A stretch of DNA of 29,228 bases from a virus. Below the pieces are notes generated by a model. It was given only the letters and a program-made list of their open reading frames with translations. It ran no database searches and was not told the DNA's origin. The stretch is from positions 1-29,228 of IMG/VR virus record IMGVR_UViG_3300025759_000485. One strand, given 5' to 3'. The position numbers were made by a program, and so were the translations under genes. How positions within the stretch are numbered: the first letter of the stretch is position 1; each line of letters opens with the position of its first letter. Of the stretch, positions 4,100 through 28,973 are shown in pieces.

Positions 4100-4711
4100 A
4101 TGATTAAGCGTGGAAAGTTTTGGTTCCCTGAAGATGATAATCATTTTAATGGGGAAAATTATCAGGTACATCACCGCAGGGAAAGCTTATCACATTGTGA
4201 TAAATTCAATACTGCTATTGATGTCGGCGCACACGTAGGAACTTGGGCTGTAGATTTACAGGAGTTCTTTGAAAAGGTGTATGCCTTTGAACCTGTACCT
4301 GTACATCGTGAATGCTTAGAAAGAAATGTTGATACAGATATTGTTGAGATACTTCCTTATGCTCTTGGAGATTACGATGGGAATGTTTGTCTATCTTACG
4401 CAAAGGATGGCAACAGTGGTACATCTTCTATCACAGAGGATGGAGACTATGAAGCAGAAATTCGTACACTAGACTCATTCGGATATAAAGATATTGACTA
4501 CATTAAGATTGATGTAGAAGGTTTTGAATTACAGTTTTTAAAAGGAGCAGCTGAAACAATAAAAGAAAATCGTCCAACAATTAACATAGAGGTTAAGAAT
4601 ACTTGTGAAAGATTTGGATATAAACAAGAAGACATATTTACTTATCTAACAGAACTTGGTATGATACCTGTAGGCAGAACAGTTGACGATTGGGTTTGGA
4701 GATATGCTTAG
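4100..4711 (+). CDS. FkbM-family SAM-dependent methyltransferase
   Basis: A 203-aa class I methyltransferase. Motif I is AIDVGAHVGTWA (39-50), the ribose-binding acid is E64 in FEPVP, and the family signature IKIDVEGFELQFLKGA spans about 135-150, followed by INIEV near 161. FkbM enzymes O-methylate sugars or polyketides, and in bacteria and phages they often sit with glycan genes. Here it sits alone among replication genes, 5 kb from the glycosyltransferases. It starts at an ATG with AGAAAGGA nine bases upstream. The substrate cannot be read from sequence; a surface or virion glycan is the best guess. Confidence 0.88.
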   Translation: MIKRGKFWFPEDDNHFNGENYQVHHRRESLSHCDKFNTAIDVGAHVGTWAVDLQEFFEKVYAFEPVPVHRECLERNVDTDIVEILPYALGDYDGNVCLSYAKDGNSGTSSITEDGDYEAEIRTLDSFGYKDIDYIKIDVEGFELQFLKGAAETIKENRPTINIEVKNTCERFGYKQEDIFTYLTELGMIPVGRTVDDWVWRYA

Positions 4712-8805: not shown

Positions 8806-9241
8806 TCAACTAGAACTATTTACTATTGATTACCAAGAACCGGAAGACGGATTTGTTTGTATTAAATGTGGTATCCGGCAAAGTGAAAAACAATTTTATG
8901 TTGCTGAATATAGACACACAGAAAGAAGAGAAATTAAAAGAACTTGTAATACTTGTAAAAACAATCAAAGCAAACTTGTAAGACAATTAAAAAATACTGT
9001 ACCATACCCAGACAAAGATTATAGTTGTCCTATATGTAGCAGAACAATACAAGAGATTGGAAAGTACGGACAACCCAAACTACAAACATGGGTGCTTGAC
9101 CACTGTCATATTACTGAAACATTTAGAGGATGGATATGTCACCACTGCAACACTGGCATTGGTTCTCTTGGTGATAATATAGACAGATTAAAAAATGCAG
9201 TTAGCTATTTAAAAAAACATTTGACTTCTATGAAAAAATAA
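8795..9241 (+). CDS. Endonuclease VII-like HNH nuclease
   Basis: A 148-aa zinc-binding nuclease of the recombination endonuclease VII type. Cys pairs C22/C25 and C51/C54 form an N-terminal zinc-ribbon-like knuckle. C78/C81 and C115/C118 would hold the structural zinc of the HNH fold. The beta-beta-alpha metal core is LDHCHITETFRGWICHHCNT (101-120), with the D-H-x-H and N119 expected of the family. Such enzymes are either junction resolvases or free-standing homing-type nucleases. Since a T7-type resolvase is already present at 5821, a mobile HNH is plausible. The ATG at 8795 overlaps the small membrane protein by 11 bases; an upstream in-frame start at 8759 lies inside that gene and adds an unlikely leader. 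Confidence 0.85.
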   Translation: MSSNQLELFTIDYQEPEDGFVCIKCGIRQSEKQFYVAEYRHTERREIKRTCNTCKNNQSKLVRQLKNTVPYPDKDYSCPICSRTIQEIGKYGQPKLQTWVLDHCHITETFRGWICHHCNTGIGSLGDNIDRLKNAVSYLKKHLTSMKK

Positions 9242-9249
9242 ATTACAAT
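9221..9249 (+). promoter_or_regulatory. Strong sigma70-like promoter for the glycan gene pair
   Basis: TTGACT (9221-9226), a 17-base spacer, TACAAT (9244-9249): five of six at both boxes, the best promoter I found on this strand. Its -35 lies in the end of the HNH gene and the -10 sits about 40 bases before the GT8-like gene, suggesting separate early expression of that pair. Confidence 0.65.
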
Positions 9250-9288
9250 ACATTATCTTGAGTTTTGTTTAGGAGATGTATTAAGTAA

Positions 9289-10065
9289 ATGTTTAGTGAA
9301 AAGAAACCAGTAATCTATATAGGATATGACTCTCGTGAAGCTTCTGCATATGAAGTTTTGCGAGAGTCTATTTTGCGTTACACGCACAAATACGACATCA
9401 TTCCCTTAGTCCAAACATCTCTTAGACGCGCAGGTTTATACCGCCGTACCATTAGGCTTGACATAGAAACAGGTAGCCCTGCAAGGGTTGATGAGTTTGA
9501 TTGTCGCCCCTTCAGTACCGACTTTACATTTACCCGCTTTCTTATCCCAGCTTTAAACCAGTACTCTGGTTGGGCTTTGTTTATGGATTCGGATATGTTC
9601 TTACGTACTAACATTGAAGAATTGTTTGAAGAGTATACTCAGAACGAACAGTATGCTATCCAATGTGTACATCATAACTACAACCCATCATCAGGTATCA
9701 AGATGGATGGACAGGTACAACAGAATTACAATCGTAAGAATTGGTCTAGTCTTGTACTGTGGAACTGTTCACATAAGGCTAACTTAAACCTTACAGTTGA
9801 TGATGCTAACCTAAAGACAGGCGGTTGGCTACATGGCTTTGGTTGGTTAGAAGACGAACACATTGGTTCTATTAGTGAAGATTGGAACTGGTTAGATGGA
9901 TGGTCTTCAGAAAGTATTGATGCTAAGAACGTACACTTTACTACAGGTGGTCCTTGGTTTGCAGAGTGGGAACCAAAGAGAGATATAGATGCCACCTATG
10001 CAGGTGAGTGGAAAAAATTAAAAGCCAATATGATATTAGACAAAGAATTTGGAAAGGTAATTTAA
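9289..10065 (+). CDS. GT8-like glycosyltransferase
   Basis: A 258-aa GT-A fold enzyme expected to transfer a sugar from a nucleotide-sugar donor. It starts with a Rossmann-like strand (PVIYIGYDSREASAYEVL). The metal-binding DXD is D100-S-D102 in ALFMDSDMF, and the acceptor-side motifs SSLVLWNC (153-160) and HFTTGGPW (216-223) resemble GT8 relatives, which have a conserved H-x-x-G near the end. A stop directly precedes the ATG, which fixes the start; AGGAG is 13 bases away, rather far. It overlaps the next gene by one base (TAATG), so the two are probably coupled. No membrane segment: likely cytosolic. Confidence 0.85.
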   Translation: MFSEKKPVIYIGYDSREASAYEVLRESILRYTHKYDIIPLVQTSLRRAGLYRRTIRLDIETGSPARVDEFDCRPFSTDFTFTRFLIPALNQYSGWALFMDSDMFLRTNIEELFEEYTQNEQYAIQCVHHNYNPSSGIKMDGQVQQNYNRKNWSSLVLWNCSHKANLNLTVDDANLKTGGWLHGFGWLEDEHIGSISEDWNWLDGWSSESIDAKNVHFTTGGPWFAEWEPKRDIDATYAGEWKKLKANMILDKEFGKVI

Positions 10066-12383
10066 TGTATACATTTGTAACATCATTTAGTAAGGAAGGA
10101 TTTGATAGCTATGCTAAACATATGCTTGAAAGCGTTAAGGAAAAGTGGAATCCAAAGCATTTTAGACTCGTGGCGTATTACCATGATTTTAATATTGAAG
10201 ATGTACCTCATCCTGTTTGTGATACTATTAGCTACCGTAATCTAAATGACATAGAAGAGATGCTTGAGTACCGTGAGCGTATGAAACTACACGATGGTAC
10301 TGAAGGTGGTAAGATGCCATATAACTGGCGGCTTGATGCAATCAAGTGGTGTCATAAAGTTTATGCAATGACAGACCTTGCGTTTGAAATGATGGATGTA
10401 GATGACAAATATATTACCGCAGGTATTGAACCACCTGAAAACAATTGGATGATTTGGATTGATGCTGATACAGTAGCGACTAAACGTCTTGATGTTAAAC
10501 GTCTAGCTGAATGGTTACCAGATGCGGTTGACCTAGTACACTTAGGAAGAAAGGATACAGACTACAGTGAGACAAGTTTCATGGGCTTTAACTTGGGGGT
10601 TCATAATACTTGTAGTCTCCTTGCTGACCTTAGAGGTGCTTACACTATTGGCGAAGTAGTTGCTTATCGTGAATGGCATGATGGCTTTATCTTTGAACGG
10701 TTGTTAAATATTTACAAGGCACATGGTATGGAAGTACATAATCTTTCTCCTAATGTTAAAGGACTTGCAGCATTTGAACAGTCACCTCTTTCTGAATACT
10801 TTACTCACTTCAAAGGTAATTTAAAAAAGAATGTTGGTAATATGACAGTAACACCAGATGTTAATGGACCAAAAAGATACCAACAAATACTACAATTAAT
10901 CCTACACTACCGTCCCTCAAACATTGTTGAGACAGGAACTTGGAATGGTGGACGTGCTATCCAAATGGCAACTGCTGCATTCCAGTATACTAATGTAGTA
11001 AAGTATTATGGTTTTGATTTATTTGAAGATGCGACAGAAGAAACAGATGCACGTGAGTTTAACACAAAACCACACAACTCTATGGAAGCTGTTGAGAAAC
11101 GACTTCAAGAGTTTGCTGATAAAATGAAACAAGAAGGTAAAAAGTTTTCATTTAAATTATACAAAGGTGATACAAAAGAAACGCTATCTCAATGTAAAGA
11201 AATTAAAAGTGCAGACTTTGCATACATTGATGGTGGTAATTCTTATGAAACATCTAAGTCTGATTTTGAAAACTTAAAACACACACCTGTTATTGTTTTT
11301 AATAATTACTTTTCTAAAGATAGTAAAAAACGTATTCCAAAAAATGATAGCGTCAACCGTCTTGTAAAAGAAATTACAGCTTATGGAAAAGTAGTTCTTC
11401 CTAGTAGTGATGGTGTTACCGAAGGTGGTATTACTCATCTATGTTTTATTGCGATGAAAGAAGGACTACCTAAGATACCTGAAGAACTTACACGTGTACC
11501 TATTGTGGTTACACCAAAAGACTCACGACCTAAAGAAGAAATTATTGATAATGTCTTAGCCAATAAAAAACTTATTAAAGATTTTGATTGGATTAAAACA
11601 AGTAAAATTAATAATGAAACAGCAATCATTGTTTCTGGTGGACACAGTACTGACTTTGTAGAGTTAAAGAAACGTATTAAGAAAACTAAAGCTAAAGTAT
11701 TCTGTGTTAAACATAGCTATCCAATGTTACTTGAAAATGGTATTCAACCTTTTGCCTGTGTCGTCTTAGACCCTCGTCCTATTACAGGTACAAGTACACA
11801 TGGTGTAGTACGTAAGGATTTGTTTAAGACAGTTGACGATAAGACTATTATGCTTGTTGCTTCTATGACTGACCCATCTGTTACTGAATACCTACTTGAA
11901 CAAGGTGCTAATGTTAAAGGTTGGCAAGCTTATTCAGATGCTCTACGTGATATGTCTGTTATGGATAAGATTGTGGTGGACAAGGCTACAGGTATTGAAG
12001 AAGGTTCTACTCTAATTACTGGCGGTACTTGTGCAGCTATGCGTACCATTGCCATTGCACATACACTAGGGTTCAGAAACTTTGAACTGTTTGGATTTGA
12101 TTGTTCTGTTGGAGAAATAACAGAAGAAATGAAAAAGGAAACAACTGATACTGAGAAGTCTAAGCCTAAGTATATGCAGGTAGAAACTGGAGGACAAAAG
12201 TTCTGGACTACAGGTGAATTACTTGCAATGGCACAGGACTGTGAAAAGTTATTTGATAATGACCAGATGGATATGGGTATTACTTTCCACGGTGAAGGTA
12301 CTCTAGCTGCAGCCGTGTGGGAACAGTCTAAACGTGGACAAGAAAAATACTATACGGAATTATTGAATGACATCGCAGCTTAA
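10065..12383 (+). CDS. Three-domain glycosyltransferase / methyltransferase / Maf-like (DUF115) protein
   Basis: A 772-aa fusion. Domain 1 (about 1-255) is a GT-A glycosyltransferase with a D133-A-D135 metal motif in MIWIDADTVATKR. Domain 2 (about 262-460) is a class I SAM methyltransferase-like domain: NIVETGTWNGG (286-296) as motif I, YYGFDLFED as motif II, FAYIDGGNSYE as motif IV. Domain 3 (about 515-690) is DUF115/MptE-Maf-like: NETAIIVSGG, FACVVLDPRP, and the hallmark TGGTCAAMRTIAIAHTLGFR followed by ELFGFDCS. In flagellated bacteria Maf proteins transfer nonulosonic acids to flagellin. Start 10065 is chosen for GGAAAGG seven bases upstream and the one-base stop-start overlap; the frame is open further upstream to 10008. 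The fusion suggests building and methylating a glycan on one acceptor. The target is unknown. Confidence 0.85.
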   Translation: MYTFVTSFSKEGFDSYAKHMLESVKEKWNPKHFRLVAYYHDFNIEDVPHPVCDTISYRNLNDIEEMLEYRERMKLHDGTEGGKMPYNWRLDAIKWCHKVYAMTDLAFEMMDVDDKYITAGIEPPENNWMIWIDADTVATKRLDVKRLAEWLPDAVDLVHLGRKDTDYSETSFMGFNLGVHNTCSLLADLRGAYTIGEVVAYREWHDGFIFERLLNIYKAHGMEVHNLSPNVKGLAAFEQSPLSEYFTHFKGNLKKNVGNMTVTPDVNGPKRYQQILQLILHYRPSNIVETGTWNGGRAIQMATAAFQYTNVVKYYGFDLFEDATEETDAREFNTKPHNSMEAVEKRLQEFADKMKQEGKKFSFKLYKGDTKETLSQCKEIKSADFAYIDGGNSYETSKSDFENLKHTPVIVFNNYFSKDSKKRIPKNDSVNRLVKEITAYGKVVLPSSDGVTEGGITHLCFIAMKEGLPKIPEELTRVPIVVTPKDSRPKEEIIDNVLANKKLIKDFDWIKTSKINNETAIIVSGGHSTDFVELKKRIKKTKAKVFCVKHSYPMLLENGIQPFACVVLDPRPITGTSTHGVVRKDLFKTVDDKTIMLVASMTDPSVTEYLLEQGANVKGWQAYSDALRDMSVMDKIVVDKATGIEEGSTLITGGTCAAMRTIAIAHTLGFRNFELFGFDCSVGEITEEMKKETTDTEKSKPKYMQVETGGQKFWTTGELLAMAQDCEKLFDNDQMDMGITFHGEGTLAAAVWEQSKRGQEKYYTELLNDIAA

Positions 12384-12879
12384 AGAAAAGCAAGAGAAGT
12401 TCTGCCAAGCTTATATCCTGCATCGTAATGCTACAAGAGCAGCTATTGCGGCAGGGTATAGTGAGGCATCTGCACACAACCAAGGGTATAGACTTCTTCA
12501 AGACGACAAGATACAGGAGCGTATTGAAGAACTAACCAATGAAATTAGCACAGATGTAGATGTTATTTCTGAAATTGAAAAGCAATATGAGCAAGCAAGG
12601 AATGCTGGTCATGGGGCGGTAGCCCTCAAAGCCCTAGAGTTATTGTCTCGTGTACGTGGTAATAATACAGAAGACAATGATGCCACACCTGAATCTCTTG
12701 AAGCAGAGATTGTGGGAACCATGCAGATACTAGGTTTTGAAAAGGTGTTCCAGCTTCTTGCCGAAGCGTTTCCTGAACAGTTTGAGGGTGAGGAAGAAGA
12801 GGACGATGAGACTTTACTTCTTACCGAAGAACTTACTAGCACTACGGACACCGAAGCTGGCAGCGACAATGACACCTAG
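12367..12879 (+). CDS. terS: Terminase small subunit
   Basis: A 170-aa DNA-recognition subunit of the packaging motor. The N-terminus (LKEKQEKFCQAYILHRNATR, then AAIAAGYSEASAHNQGYRLL) is the HTH signature of the Terminase_2 family. A helical centre follows, and the last 35 residues are strongly acidic and Thr/Ser-rich. The start overlaps the Maf-like gene by 17 bases. It lies on the opposite strand from the virion genes, and no large subunit is in the window. Its 3' end overlaps the 3TM holin gene, read from the other strand, by 66 bases. Confidence 0.88.
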   Translation: MTSQLKEKQEKFCQAYILHRNATRAAIAAGYSEASAHNQGYRLLQDDKIQERIEELTNEISTDVDVISEIEKQYEQARNAGHGAVALKALELLSRVRGNNTEDNDATPESLEAEIVGTMQILGFEKVFQLLAEAFPEQFEGEEEEDDETLLLTEELTSTTDTEAGSDNDT

Positions 12880-26495: not shown

Positions 26496-28973
26496 TTATC
26501 TGGCGTTAGCATATTTAAATGGGTTTTCTGCAAAGGCTATGTAGATATATCTTGGACTGCCGCTGTCATTTAATCGTGTCCAATTTGTTCTAATTTTAAA
26601 ACCATTAGAAAGAATATCTACGTTCTCACCAGTTGAAGTGTCTTCTGTAAGTGCTTGGTCAGGTGATAACCACGCCTGACTTCCATTGTAAGCGGTTCGT
26701 GTACTGTCCATCATATACCACGAATAACCAGTAGTGACCGCAGACTTGATAATAATAAACGCTGGCTTGAACCCTGTGTAAACGAATGGTCCATTGACGG
26801 AATTATTTCCTATATATTGGCCTATCTTGCTGTAGCCATCAACAGAGTGAAAACAATACGCAATTATGTCATTGCCACTGGTGTTGTTCCAAGAGGAAGT
26901 TCCAAGAGAAAACACATTTGAAGTTGGCGCAGTTGAGTTAAAAATAAACGTGTCGCCTGTTTCAGCGGTAGATTCGTTCAATTGTATGCGTTCATCTTCT
27001 GGATTTACACCGTTGTTTAACTTAAAATGGTAAGAACCCCACGGTCTCCCAGTAGGATAATCTCTGTCTTTTATGGTAATAAATTCAGGGGTACTAGACA
27101 GGCCGTGATAAACTGTGCCAGCCACACCTGTGCCAACGTAAGACACTATAGAAAACCCTGCGTCCGTATTTACCAAACCGCTTGAGGCTATTGTTGCACC
27201 GTTTGTTCCTGCGCTATTACTGAACGCTGTGCCAGCTTTCCAGTTCCATGCGACCTGAGTGCCGCCGTTATTCCAGCTTCCATAAGTAGCGTCTGCACCT
27301 AAAGTAAATCCATCGCTATCAAATGAGCTTAAGCCATCTGTAGTTGTTATTTCAGCGTAAGTGTCATCTGATATAAGCCATTTTTGAGTACCTCTAACAT
27401 TGTCCCATAAAGCATGAGCCGCAGCGTTGGGAGTACGTTTTTTTATCCAGACGAGTGACGGCTCAAACCCAACGCCAGTAATGCTTTGGTTTGCACCAGT
27501 GCCACTATAAAGCACAGTATTGAAATTCTCATCACTAAGTGAATTACCAAGTGGACCTACAACTGGCTCTGGAAGATTAGCTGTACACAAGGCAAGGTAG
27601 CCAGACGGCACAGAATACTTGAAGTCACCCACGCCGTTACCATCAGCGTTGCCGCCAGCGGTTGTTGCGCCAGCAAAGGTGCTGTCTTGACCGAAATTGA
27701 ATGTAACAGTGCTTCCATTGTAAACGCCAACCATCGGGTTATGCAGAAGGTCAGACACACCAGTAATAACAGGACTACCAGAATTTTGTGCAGTACCGTT
27801 GTGGTAAAAGTAAACATTGCCATTATCTAGGTCTATCGCAAATCCTAGAACATCACCAGCACTGGGGGCAGTGACAGAACTGACCGCTTTTGTTCCTGTG
27901 CCAATAAGATTTATTGTGCCATCACCTTCCCAAGACCAACCGTTTATACCAGCGACTACTGATGGAATTTGTGAATTAGTAGATGTATGAACAAGATTAC
28001 TTTCACCTGTTGCTGCACCTACAAAATTATAATAATTGGTGCCAGCAGTTACCTCACTATTTACATAAACTTCCCAATACCACTTGCCAGAAGATTGTTC
28101 AAAGGTGGATGTTATTCCTCCAGAATAGCTTACTGTGGTTCCTACGGCTTTTAGATTACCTTCTGAAAGCGTTACAGATGTCCCACTAGAAGGCTCAATT
28201 GAGTTCATTACAGAAAAGTTATTTGTAGGTGTGTCAATCATTTGGTCAGTTGTTGCAATATTATTAACAGACCAGTTATTACTATTACCTGAACTATCTA
28301 AACCTAAATTAGTAGCTGTTGAGTTATCTGAAAAATCAAGATAAAAACCATTTGTACCGTATGAACCACCGTAAGATTTTGGAATCCATACGCCTGACTT
28401 AGTTTCGCCAAAGCTGGTAGGGTCTAGGGCTTGACCGTCAATAAAATTAATTTCTGTCATATAGCCGTCAAAATACTGTGAGCCTGATGTAAATCTCCCA
28501 ATATTATGAGCATTGGTGCTGTTAAAATAACCATTTCCGCTAACTCTTGCTCCAATATTTAAAGCTTGCTGAATACCGTTAACATAAATCTCAGAACTTG
28601 AGCCACTCCGTTGAACAAGGATGTGATACCAAGAGCTTGTGTCTCTGAATTTACCAGATGTACTAAGTAAATTTTGCTGAGACCCACTAACATAAAATGT
28701 GTATCTTATAGTGTCATCACTATCAAATCTTATATATTCAAAATCATTTGCCCCAGAATATGCAATAAACATATTTGAAGACTGACTTATGTTGCCACGT
28801 TTTACCCACGCACTCCAAGTCCACGTTGTTCTGTTTGTTGCAGATGATGGTGTGCGGCTTAGATATGCGCTGTCATTGTCATTAAAGCGTAAGCTATCGT
28901 TGATTTCATAATCATAGAAACCACCACCTGTTGCACCTGACCCAAACCATATAGGACTATTTGTTAAAGACAT
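26496..28973 (-). CDS. Tail fibre with LamG, SPRY-like and three repeat domains
   Basis: An 825-aa modular receptor-binding candidate. Residues about 25-190 form a LamG/concanavalin-A-like domain (TWTWSAWVKRGN, WYHILVQRSG, SEIYVNGIQQ, FDGYMTEINFIDGQAL). About 255-430 are SPRY-like (GKWYWEVYVN, GDVLGFAIDLDNGNVYFYHN). After a hinge come three diverged copies of one beta domain, whose strands begin FEPSLVWIKKR (503), TPEFITIKDR (628) and FKPAFIIIKSA (735); the protein ends YIAFAENPFKYANAR. This last type is frequent in marine phage fibres (DUF7483-like, from memory). Lectin folds suggest binding of cell-surface sugars. CGGAG lies ten bases before the ATG. Parts of the gene are visibly more GC-rich than the rest of the late arm. 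Confidence 0.82.
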   Translation of the reverse strand: MSLTNSPIWFGSGATGGGFYDYEINDSLRFNDNDSAYLSRTPSSATNRTTWTWSAWVKRGNISQSSNMFIAYSGANDFEYIRFDSDDTIRYTFYVSGSQQNLLSTSGKFRDTSSWYHILVQRSGSSSEIYVNGIQQALNIGARVSGNGYFNSTNAHNIGRFTSGSQYFDGYMTEINFIDGQALDPTSFGETKSGVWIPKSYGGSYGTNGFYLDFSDNSTATNLGLDSSGNSNNWSVNNIATTDQMIDTPTNNFSVMNSIEPSSGTSVTLSEGNLKAVGTTVSYSGGITSTFEQSSGKWYWEVYVNSEVTAGTNYYNFVGAATGESNLVHTSTNSQIPSVVAGINGWSWEGDGTINLIGTGTKAVSSVTAPSAGDVLGFAIDLDNGNVYFYHNGTAQNSGSPVITGVSDLLHNPMVGVYNGSTVTFNFGQDSTFAGATTAGGNADGNGVGDFKYSVPSGYLALCTANLPEPVVGPLGNSLSDENFNTVLYSGTGANQSITGVGFEPSLVWIKKRTPNAAAHALWDNVRGTQKWLISDDTYAEITTTDGLSSFDSDGFTLGADATYGSWNNGGTQVAWNWKAGTAFSNSAGTNGATIASSGLVNTDAGFSIVSYVGTGVAGTVYHGLSSTPEFITIKDRDYPTGRPWGSYHFKLNNGVNPEDERIQLNESTAETGDTFIFNSTAPTSNVFSLGTSSWNNTSGNDIIAYCFHSVDGYSKIGQYIGNNSVNGPFVYTGFKPAFIIIKSAVTTGYSWYMMDSTRTAYNGSQAWLSPDQALTEDTSTGENVDILSNGFKIRTNWTRLNDSGSPRYIYIAFAENPFKYANAR

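Follow-up and report, generated by a model that had tools for sequence, protein, structure and literature searches.

A glycosyltransferase pair fixed in an uncultured phage group

The viral record IMGVR_UViG_3300025759_000485, analysed over its whole 29,228 b (hereafter the window), carries two overlapping genes: one codes for a GT8-like glycosyltransferase (GT), the other for a 772-aa protein in which a GT, an O-methyltransferase (MT) and a DUF115/Maf-like domain are fused. This pair is universal where testable and belongs to the fixed core of a large group of uncultured marine phages. Based on the sequences, we give about an even chance to the proposal that it serves as a core module for glycan assembly whose methyl cap is exchangeable, with virion proteins as its most likely target.

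Core status was assessed on relatives picked by PolA to avoid bias, and counted only if the contig covers the site. Both genes are present in all PolA-selected relatives spanning it (24/24), and a patchy accessory gene was rejected on this count. The order GT8-[GT-MT-DUF115] is conserved and the terminase small subunit gene (terS) mostly comes next. In two divergent genomes, G020 and G047, terS does not adjoin the pair, which instead comes after genes for fibre, stabilisation and ejection that share its strand. The search of viral databases suggested in a preliminary description of this locus found the fusion on at least 305 viral contigs in a first scan, which discards an assembly artefact; members range from 44 to 100% identity, those at 44% being reached by a motif scan. 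A pattern scan of 84,980 cellular genomes, using two peptide patterns only, found none, and a cellular origin was rejected accordingly. Among 50,697 annotated phage records there was no full-length match, and only domain 1 was detected, at 26-27% identity, in Pelagibacter phage Mosig and podovirus ct7QV12. Hence the arrangement, first described as unusual in a podovirus, is so for cultured phages only and is the rule in the uncultured lineage. A protein of an uncultured Caudovirales phage, A0A6J7X5Q0, which databases already list under the name 'methyltransferase domain containing protein', is of like length class and gives a full-length fold match at 33% identity. Our literature search found no study of this protein and no description of MptE-like/DUF115 glycosyltransferases in phages.

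The ribonucleotide reductase of the window is 80% identical to that of Puniceispirillum phage HMO-2011, while the best cultured phages reach only about 39-48% identity for PolA and for TerL (taken from relative G001); the pair was not seen in HMO-2011 or in CRP-13. Judged gene by gene, the closest cultured phages have Pelagibacter, SAR116 and gammaproteobacteria as hosts. These comparisons point to an uncultured podovirus group. In Mosig the domain 1 homologue directly adjoins a GT8 homologue, and in both Mosig and ct7QV12 the stand-alone domain 1 homologues lie amid separate GT, MT, sulfotransferase or aminotransferase genes. The glycan cluster of ct7QV12 (L083 2165-6581), immediately before the large terminase gene, consists of a tibC-annotated GT, the domain 1 homologue, an MT and a PLP-dependent sugar-aminotransferase-like gene.

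Domain composition of the two proteins

The GT8-like gene with its DSD motif (residues 100-102), the single base that it has in common with the next gene (TAATG) and the 772-aa fusion were recovered exactly as given in the preliminary description. The GT8-like protein scores 16.9 bits against the Pfam Glyco_transf_8 profile, below the cut-off of 24.3, while its Mosig homologue lies above it with 30.9 bits; profile searches also matched WbbM and GT8 structures (E 5e-4 and 5e-3).

Sequence searches against the PDB gave no match for domains 1 and 2 and chance-level matches only for domain 3, so a fold search was needed. The AF2 model of domain 1, built alone from 52 sequences, has a mean pLDDT of 92.7, and the PDB matches listed are GT6 alpha-1,3-GalT/ABO transferases and a GT8 xyloside xylosyltransferase (E 1e-8 to 4e-7, TM 0.40-0.50). 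The domain has a GT-A fold with a DxD motif, and its invariant motifs are D133-A-D135, Y167SETS and W204HD, the last of which presumably resembles the WHD of GT6 enzymes. The models thus predict a retaining-type GT-A fold, GT6/GT8-like, although domain 1 differs from these enzymes in having no significant sequence similarity to solved structures. The full-length model was weaker (pLDDT 77, pTM 0.45), and the relative placement of the domains was therefore not interpreted.

Domain 2 has a class I SAM fold with a Methyltransf_24/TylF signature (36.3 bits against a cut-off of 26.3), and its fold matches are of the COMT/SpnH type, including the rhamnosyl 4'-O-methyltransferase SpnH (4ce0). FkbM (PF05050), evoked for this domain in the preliminary description, has no match in the fusion; within the window it matches only a separate gene at 4100-4711. 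In the metal-dependent sugar O-methyltransferases MycE and ThnM1, the active site comprises Asp275, His278 and Asp304, both aspartates binding Mg (PMC9275233). The matching motif of the fused domain (METHYLTRANSFERASE) is D389-G-G-H392 ... D413-D414, the correspondence being by pattern and not by superposition. Domain 2 is consequently predicted to be a metal-dependent sugar-type O-methyltransferase rather than an FkbM enzyme. It shares with TylF, MycE and SpnH the Methyltransf_24 profile, the D-x-x-H and DD residues in nearly all phage relatives and the SpnH fold, but is flanked in the fusion by a GT and a Maf-like domain and has three active-site residues replaced in the window. Since relatives of TylF and SpnH act on small glycosides, the pair could make a small glycoside or exopolysaccharide precursor, or compete for host sugar nucleotides, with no macromolecule modified. 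We find this improbable: a Maf-type domain is otherwise a protein glycosyltransferase, and genes for a small-molecule scaffold were not recognised beside the pair.

Domain 3 was correctly placed near DUF115 and Maf in the preliminary description. It scores 52 bits against the MptE-like family (PF01973, the old DUF115; cut-off 34.6), which was matched in 33/33 fusion members. In a Foldseek search of the PDB, the full-length model matches Maf 5mu5 best (E 8.5e-9) and MptE 8sd5 as well, and a PseD/Maf model matches residues 511-684 (3.5e-8). The MptE-like catalytic core is thus common, by profile and fold, to domain 3 and Maf/PseD proteins such as the Magnetospirillum Maf, but the full-length PseD model NF050051 is not matched as a whole (32.5 bits against a cut-off of 670, over model positions 221-376 of 640 only). 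We assign domain 3, from sequence and model, as a putative DUF115/MptE-like core of Maf/PseD without the other domains of Maf. Unlike Maf and PseD, it is devoid of their N- and C-terminal regions, of a flagellar context and of nonulosonic acid (NulO) genes, and is fused to a GT and an MT. The NulO donor evoked in the preliminary description was not borne out: no NeuB (PF03102) or CMP-NulO-synthetase-type (PF02348) gene was found in the genomes or contigs of 12 relatives, including near-complete ones. Such a donor would therefore have to come from the host, and the gene content leaves the idea of NulO on flagellin unsupported.

The match to 8sd5, a 6-hydroxymethylpterin diphosphokinase, together with the proximity of the pair to a class II ribonucleotide reductase gene and terS, also raises the question of whether the module modifies a nucleotide or a phage DNA base. 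In that case the DUF115 domain would work in the manner of MptE, as a diphosphokinase for a hydroxymethyl group, and the GTs would add sugar to the base. We consider this highly improbable. DNA hypermodification is disfavoured by the absence of the thymidylate-synthase-type hydroxymethylase family from the genomes searched (0/11), PseD is the closer family model, and the homologues in Mosig and ct7QV12 lie amid glycan genes. Moreover, the phage protein differs from MptE enzymes in sitting with glycosyl- and sugar-type methyltransferases, without pterin context.

Loss and exchange of the methyltransferase active site

Of 79 near relatives, 76 retain the D-x-x-H and DD motif intact. N392, N413 and N414 (H392N/D413N/D414N) are found in the window, L002 and L003; D389 is kept in the window, and the second acidic metal ligand is lost. 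An active methyl cap supplied by the fused enzyme of the window, as first envisaged, is therefore not supported. Other lost sites read NN (L307/L348), N..NN (L298), G389 and T392 (L292/L294/L347) or G389, N392 and H414 (G054), and in L290 the entire MT domain is absent, leaving a 582-aa GT-DUF115 protein. Genome G018 encodes a GT-DUF115 protein of this length, devoid of the MT domain (L404 13413-15161), adjoining an intact GT8 gene. Loss of the site requires at least five changes on a tree of the GT and DUF115 columns, built before G054 was found. The GT and DUF115 motifs stay intact throughout, with the exception of an altered GT in the G054 fusion.

Comparison of the window with L004 shows how the altered module was acquired. 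Identity is 97-99% in the GT and DUF115 parts (pS 0.11-0.15) versus 72% aa, with pS 0.61, in the MT part. In-situ decay was rejected because synonymous divergence rises too, and the MT module bearing H392N/D413N/D414N is foreign and was recombined into the gene. L307/L331 gives a like but weaker swap signal (pS 0.40 vs 0.70), and in L298/L288 synonymous sites are saturated, so that swap and decay are indistinguishable.

Additional methyltransferase genes

Extra methyltransferase genes (METHYLTRANSFERASES) accompany the lost sites. FkbM genes occur in 5/100 contigs, all five with a lost fused site (contig-level p 3e-6, which ignores shared ancestry; these are really two lineages), and the L298 genome has a stand-alone Methyltransf_24/Methyltransf_3 enzyme. 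G054 encodes both a complete fusion whose MT site is lost and whose GT motif is altered (L415 13996-16362, - strand) and a second GT-MT protein with intact sites (L411 7399-8766, - strand), which we interpret as a probable natural split of functions; L352, from this same genome, was for that reason rejected as a DUF115-less variant. When genomes were searched with all four MT families, another MT gene was found in 4/5 well-covered lost-site genomes versus 0/16 intact ones (p 8e-4, without ancestry correction and for a question that arose from the same data).

The FkbM gene of the window is inserted between the Gp2.5-like gene and o4690 in the window lineage only. It is 100% identical in L419, L424 and L433, and its nearest annotated phage homologues are 28-35% identical. 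Sister contigs with 98% PolA identity lack it, so its gain and the MT swap are both recent. We propose that this gene is a replacement for the disabled fused MT. Alternatively, the association between lost sites and extra MT genes might reflect chance and ancestry, the altered MTs being scaffolds and FkbM unrelated cargo. Such an explanation concerns the cap only, is compatible with the glycan reading, and seems to us quite conceivable, though somewhat short of even. The independent lineages are few, the contigs are incomplete and the lost-site MTs are under purifying selection; against this stand four independent cases with three kinds of extra MT, compared with none of the 16 intact genomes, and the recent date of both events in the window lineage. 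Two of the lost-site lineages also have 2OG-Fe(II) oxygenase genes close to the pair (L307 7808-8380; L406 10971-11549), and these may code for another modifying enzyme.

Proposed mechanism and acceptor

The analysis supports the glycan reading advanced in the preliminary description. In the scheme that we propose, the DUF115/Maf-like domain or one of the GTs would attach a sugar to Ser/Thr of a protein, the two GT-A enzymes would elongate the glycan from host nucleotide sugars, and the MT would O-methylate a sugar as a cap. The cap would be the variable part: a non-catalytic MT module could take the place of an active one, and a stand-alone enzyme, such as the FkbM protein of the window, would then probably give a different methylation.

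A phage virion protein is the most likely acceptor, judging from genomic context; we favour it on account of the fixation of the pair in the lineage and of its position in G020 and G047, where it follows virion and ejection genes on the same strand. There is precedent in mycobacteriophages with glycosylated capsids, such as Che8 and Rita, whose phage-encoded glycosyltransferases decorate virion proteins (PMC11256854); they differ in that the cited work reports no fusion with a Maf-like domain or a methyltransferase, and the acceptor of the pair presented here is putative. In the window, the fibre-like protein encoded at 26496-28973, with Laminin-G/ConA-like, SPRY and DUF7483 domains, is a possible glycan-binding or glycosylated virion protein.

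Maf and PseD are flagellin glycosyltransferases (PMC11339370), and the module could likewise glycosylate the host surface (flagellin, LPS, capsule), blocking superinfection or lysis of neighbours, with a cap tuned to host variation. The pair has its own upstream promoter, and the exchange of domains and the varying cap are in keeping with an arms race. We nevertheless judge this rather unlikely, considering that the pair is universal in the lineage and not patchy, that NulO genes were not found, that the Maf N- and C-terminal regions are absent and that the window genes scanned include no integrase, so that a need for stable exclusion is not obvious. Superinfection block or avoidance of defence is possible but less economical than a core virion modification.

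Several observations weigh against a virion-decorating module with an exchangeable cap. In the lineage of the window the pair shares its strand with the replication genes, ahead of terS, and the structural genes occupy the other strand. The lost-site MT domains are under purifying selection (e.g. pN/pS 0.06 for L307/L348); they are therefore kept as folded parts and may retain another role. G018 has no MT domain, and no replacement was found on its 25-kb contig. Finally, the DUF115 family also takes in pterin diphosphokinases.

Locus organisation and promoter

Features of the locus are given in Table 1. Upstream of the pair are genes for a DnaB-type helicase, PolA, the Gp2.5-like protein, FkbM, a Cas4-type exonuclease, endonuclease I, the class II ribonucleotide reductase and endonuclease VII. 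Downstream, the opposite strand carries virion genes for a lysozyme, an ejection-type protein and a fibre that has lectin and SPRY domains. PADLOC found no defence-system match, and a defence system was rejected as a reading of the locus.

Table 1. Coordinates of the features discussed, in window positions
Feature	Position	Strand	Evidence
Stand-alone FkbM-family methyltransferase	4100..4711	+	PF05050 5e-19; TIGR01444 2.8e-26
Sigma-70-like promoter TTGACT-17-TACAAT	9221..9249	+	sequence; kept in part of the relatives
GT8-like glycosyltransferase ORF, 258 aa, DSD motif	9289..10065	+	phrog_28018 2e-50; profile matches
Fusion ORF, 772 aa: glycosyltransferase - O-methyltransferase - DUF115/Maf-like	10065..12383	+	sequence, profiles, fold
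Fusion domain 1, putative retaining-type GT-A glycosyltransferase, residues ~1-252	10065..10820	+	AF2 model, PDB fold matches, conservation
Fusion domain 2, putative class I metal-dependent O-methyltransferase, residues ~253-472	10821..11480	+	Methyltransf_24; COMT/SpnH-type structures
Fusion domain 3, DUF115/MptE-like (residues ~480-690) and conserved C-terminal helices	11481..12383	+	PF01973, PseD, 5mu5, 8sd5
Terminase small subunit (terS), 17-b overlap with fusion	12367..12879	+	Terminase_2 1.1e-18; synteny

The promoter reported in the preliminary description is present, with TTGACT (9221-9226) and TACAAT (9244-9249) separated by 17 b, within and just beyond the 3' end of the endonuclease VII gene. 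A lone 10/12 match is at chance level in this AT-rich region (27 promoter-like sites vs 35.6 expected). Yet a site matching at least 10/12 with 17-b spacing occurs in 26 of 51 non-identical GT8-upstream stretches of relatives, compared with ~3 expected from shuffles. It lies mostly about -50 to -65 from the GT8 gene and is a perfect TTGACA-17-TATAAT in eight of the 26. The 51 stretches are related to one another, but the sequence around the promoter differs among them; a chance promoter was rejected by this comparison. The promoter was not present in the more distant clade L059-L081 in the upstream comparison, and is therefore a property of only part of the family. About 80 b past it, in the 5' portion of the GT8 coding sequence (9320-9375), we observed a strong hairpin (17-pair stem then T-rich; fold z-score -3.7), a possible attenuator. 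Similar stems occur in the close relatives L004, L007, L018, L016 and L008 and not in distant ones, and the stem substitutions in L007/L018 preserve pairing.

Significance

To our knowledge, phage protein glycosylation is known in few systems, and, with a glycan module fixed in a lineage that is both uncultured and widespread, entire groups of phages would depend on glycosylation. As a candidate protein glycosyltransferase complete in itself, the fusion may be able to do without nonulosonic acids. More tentatively, phages could have turned a Maf-type core into a one-polypeptide decorator of virions or host surfaces, its cap switched off by dead MT modules and replaced by stand-alone MTs, giving serotype-like glycan variation. 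The way in which the cap is lost and replaced makes it possible to test directly why phages vary their glycans.

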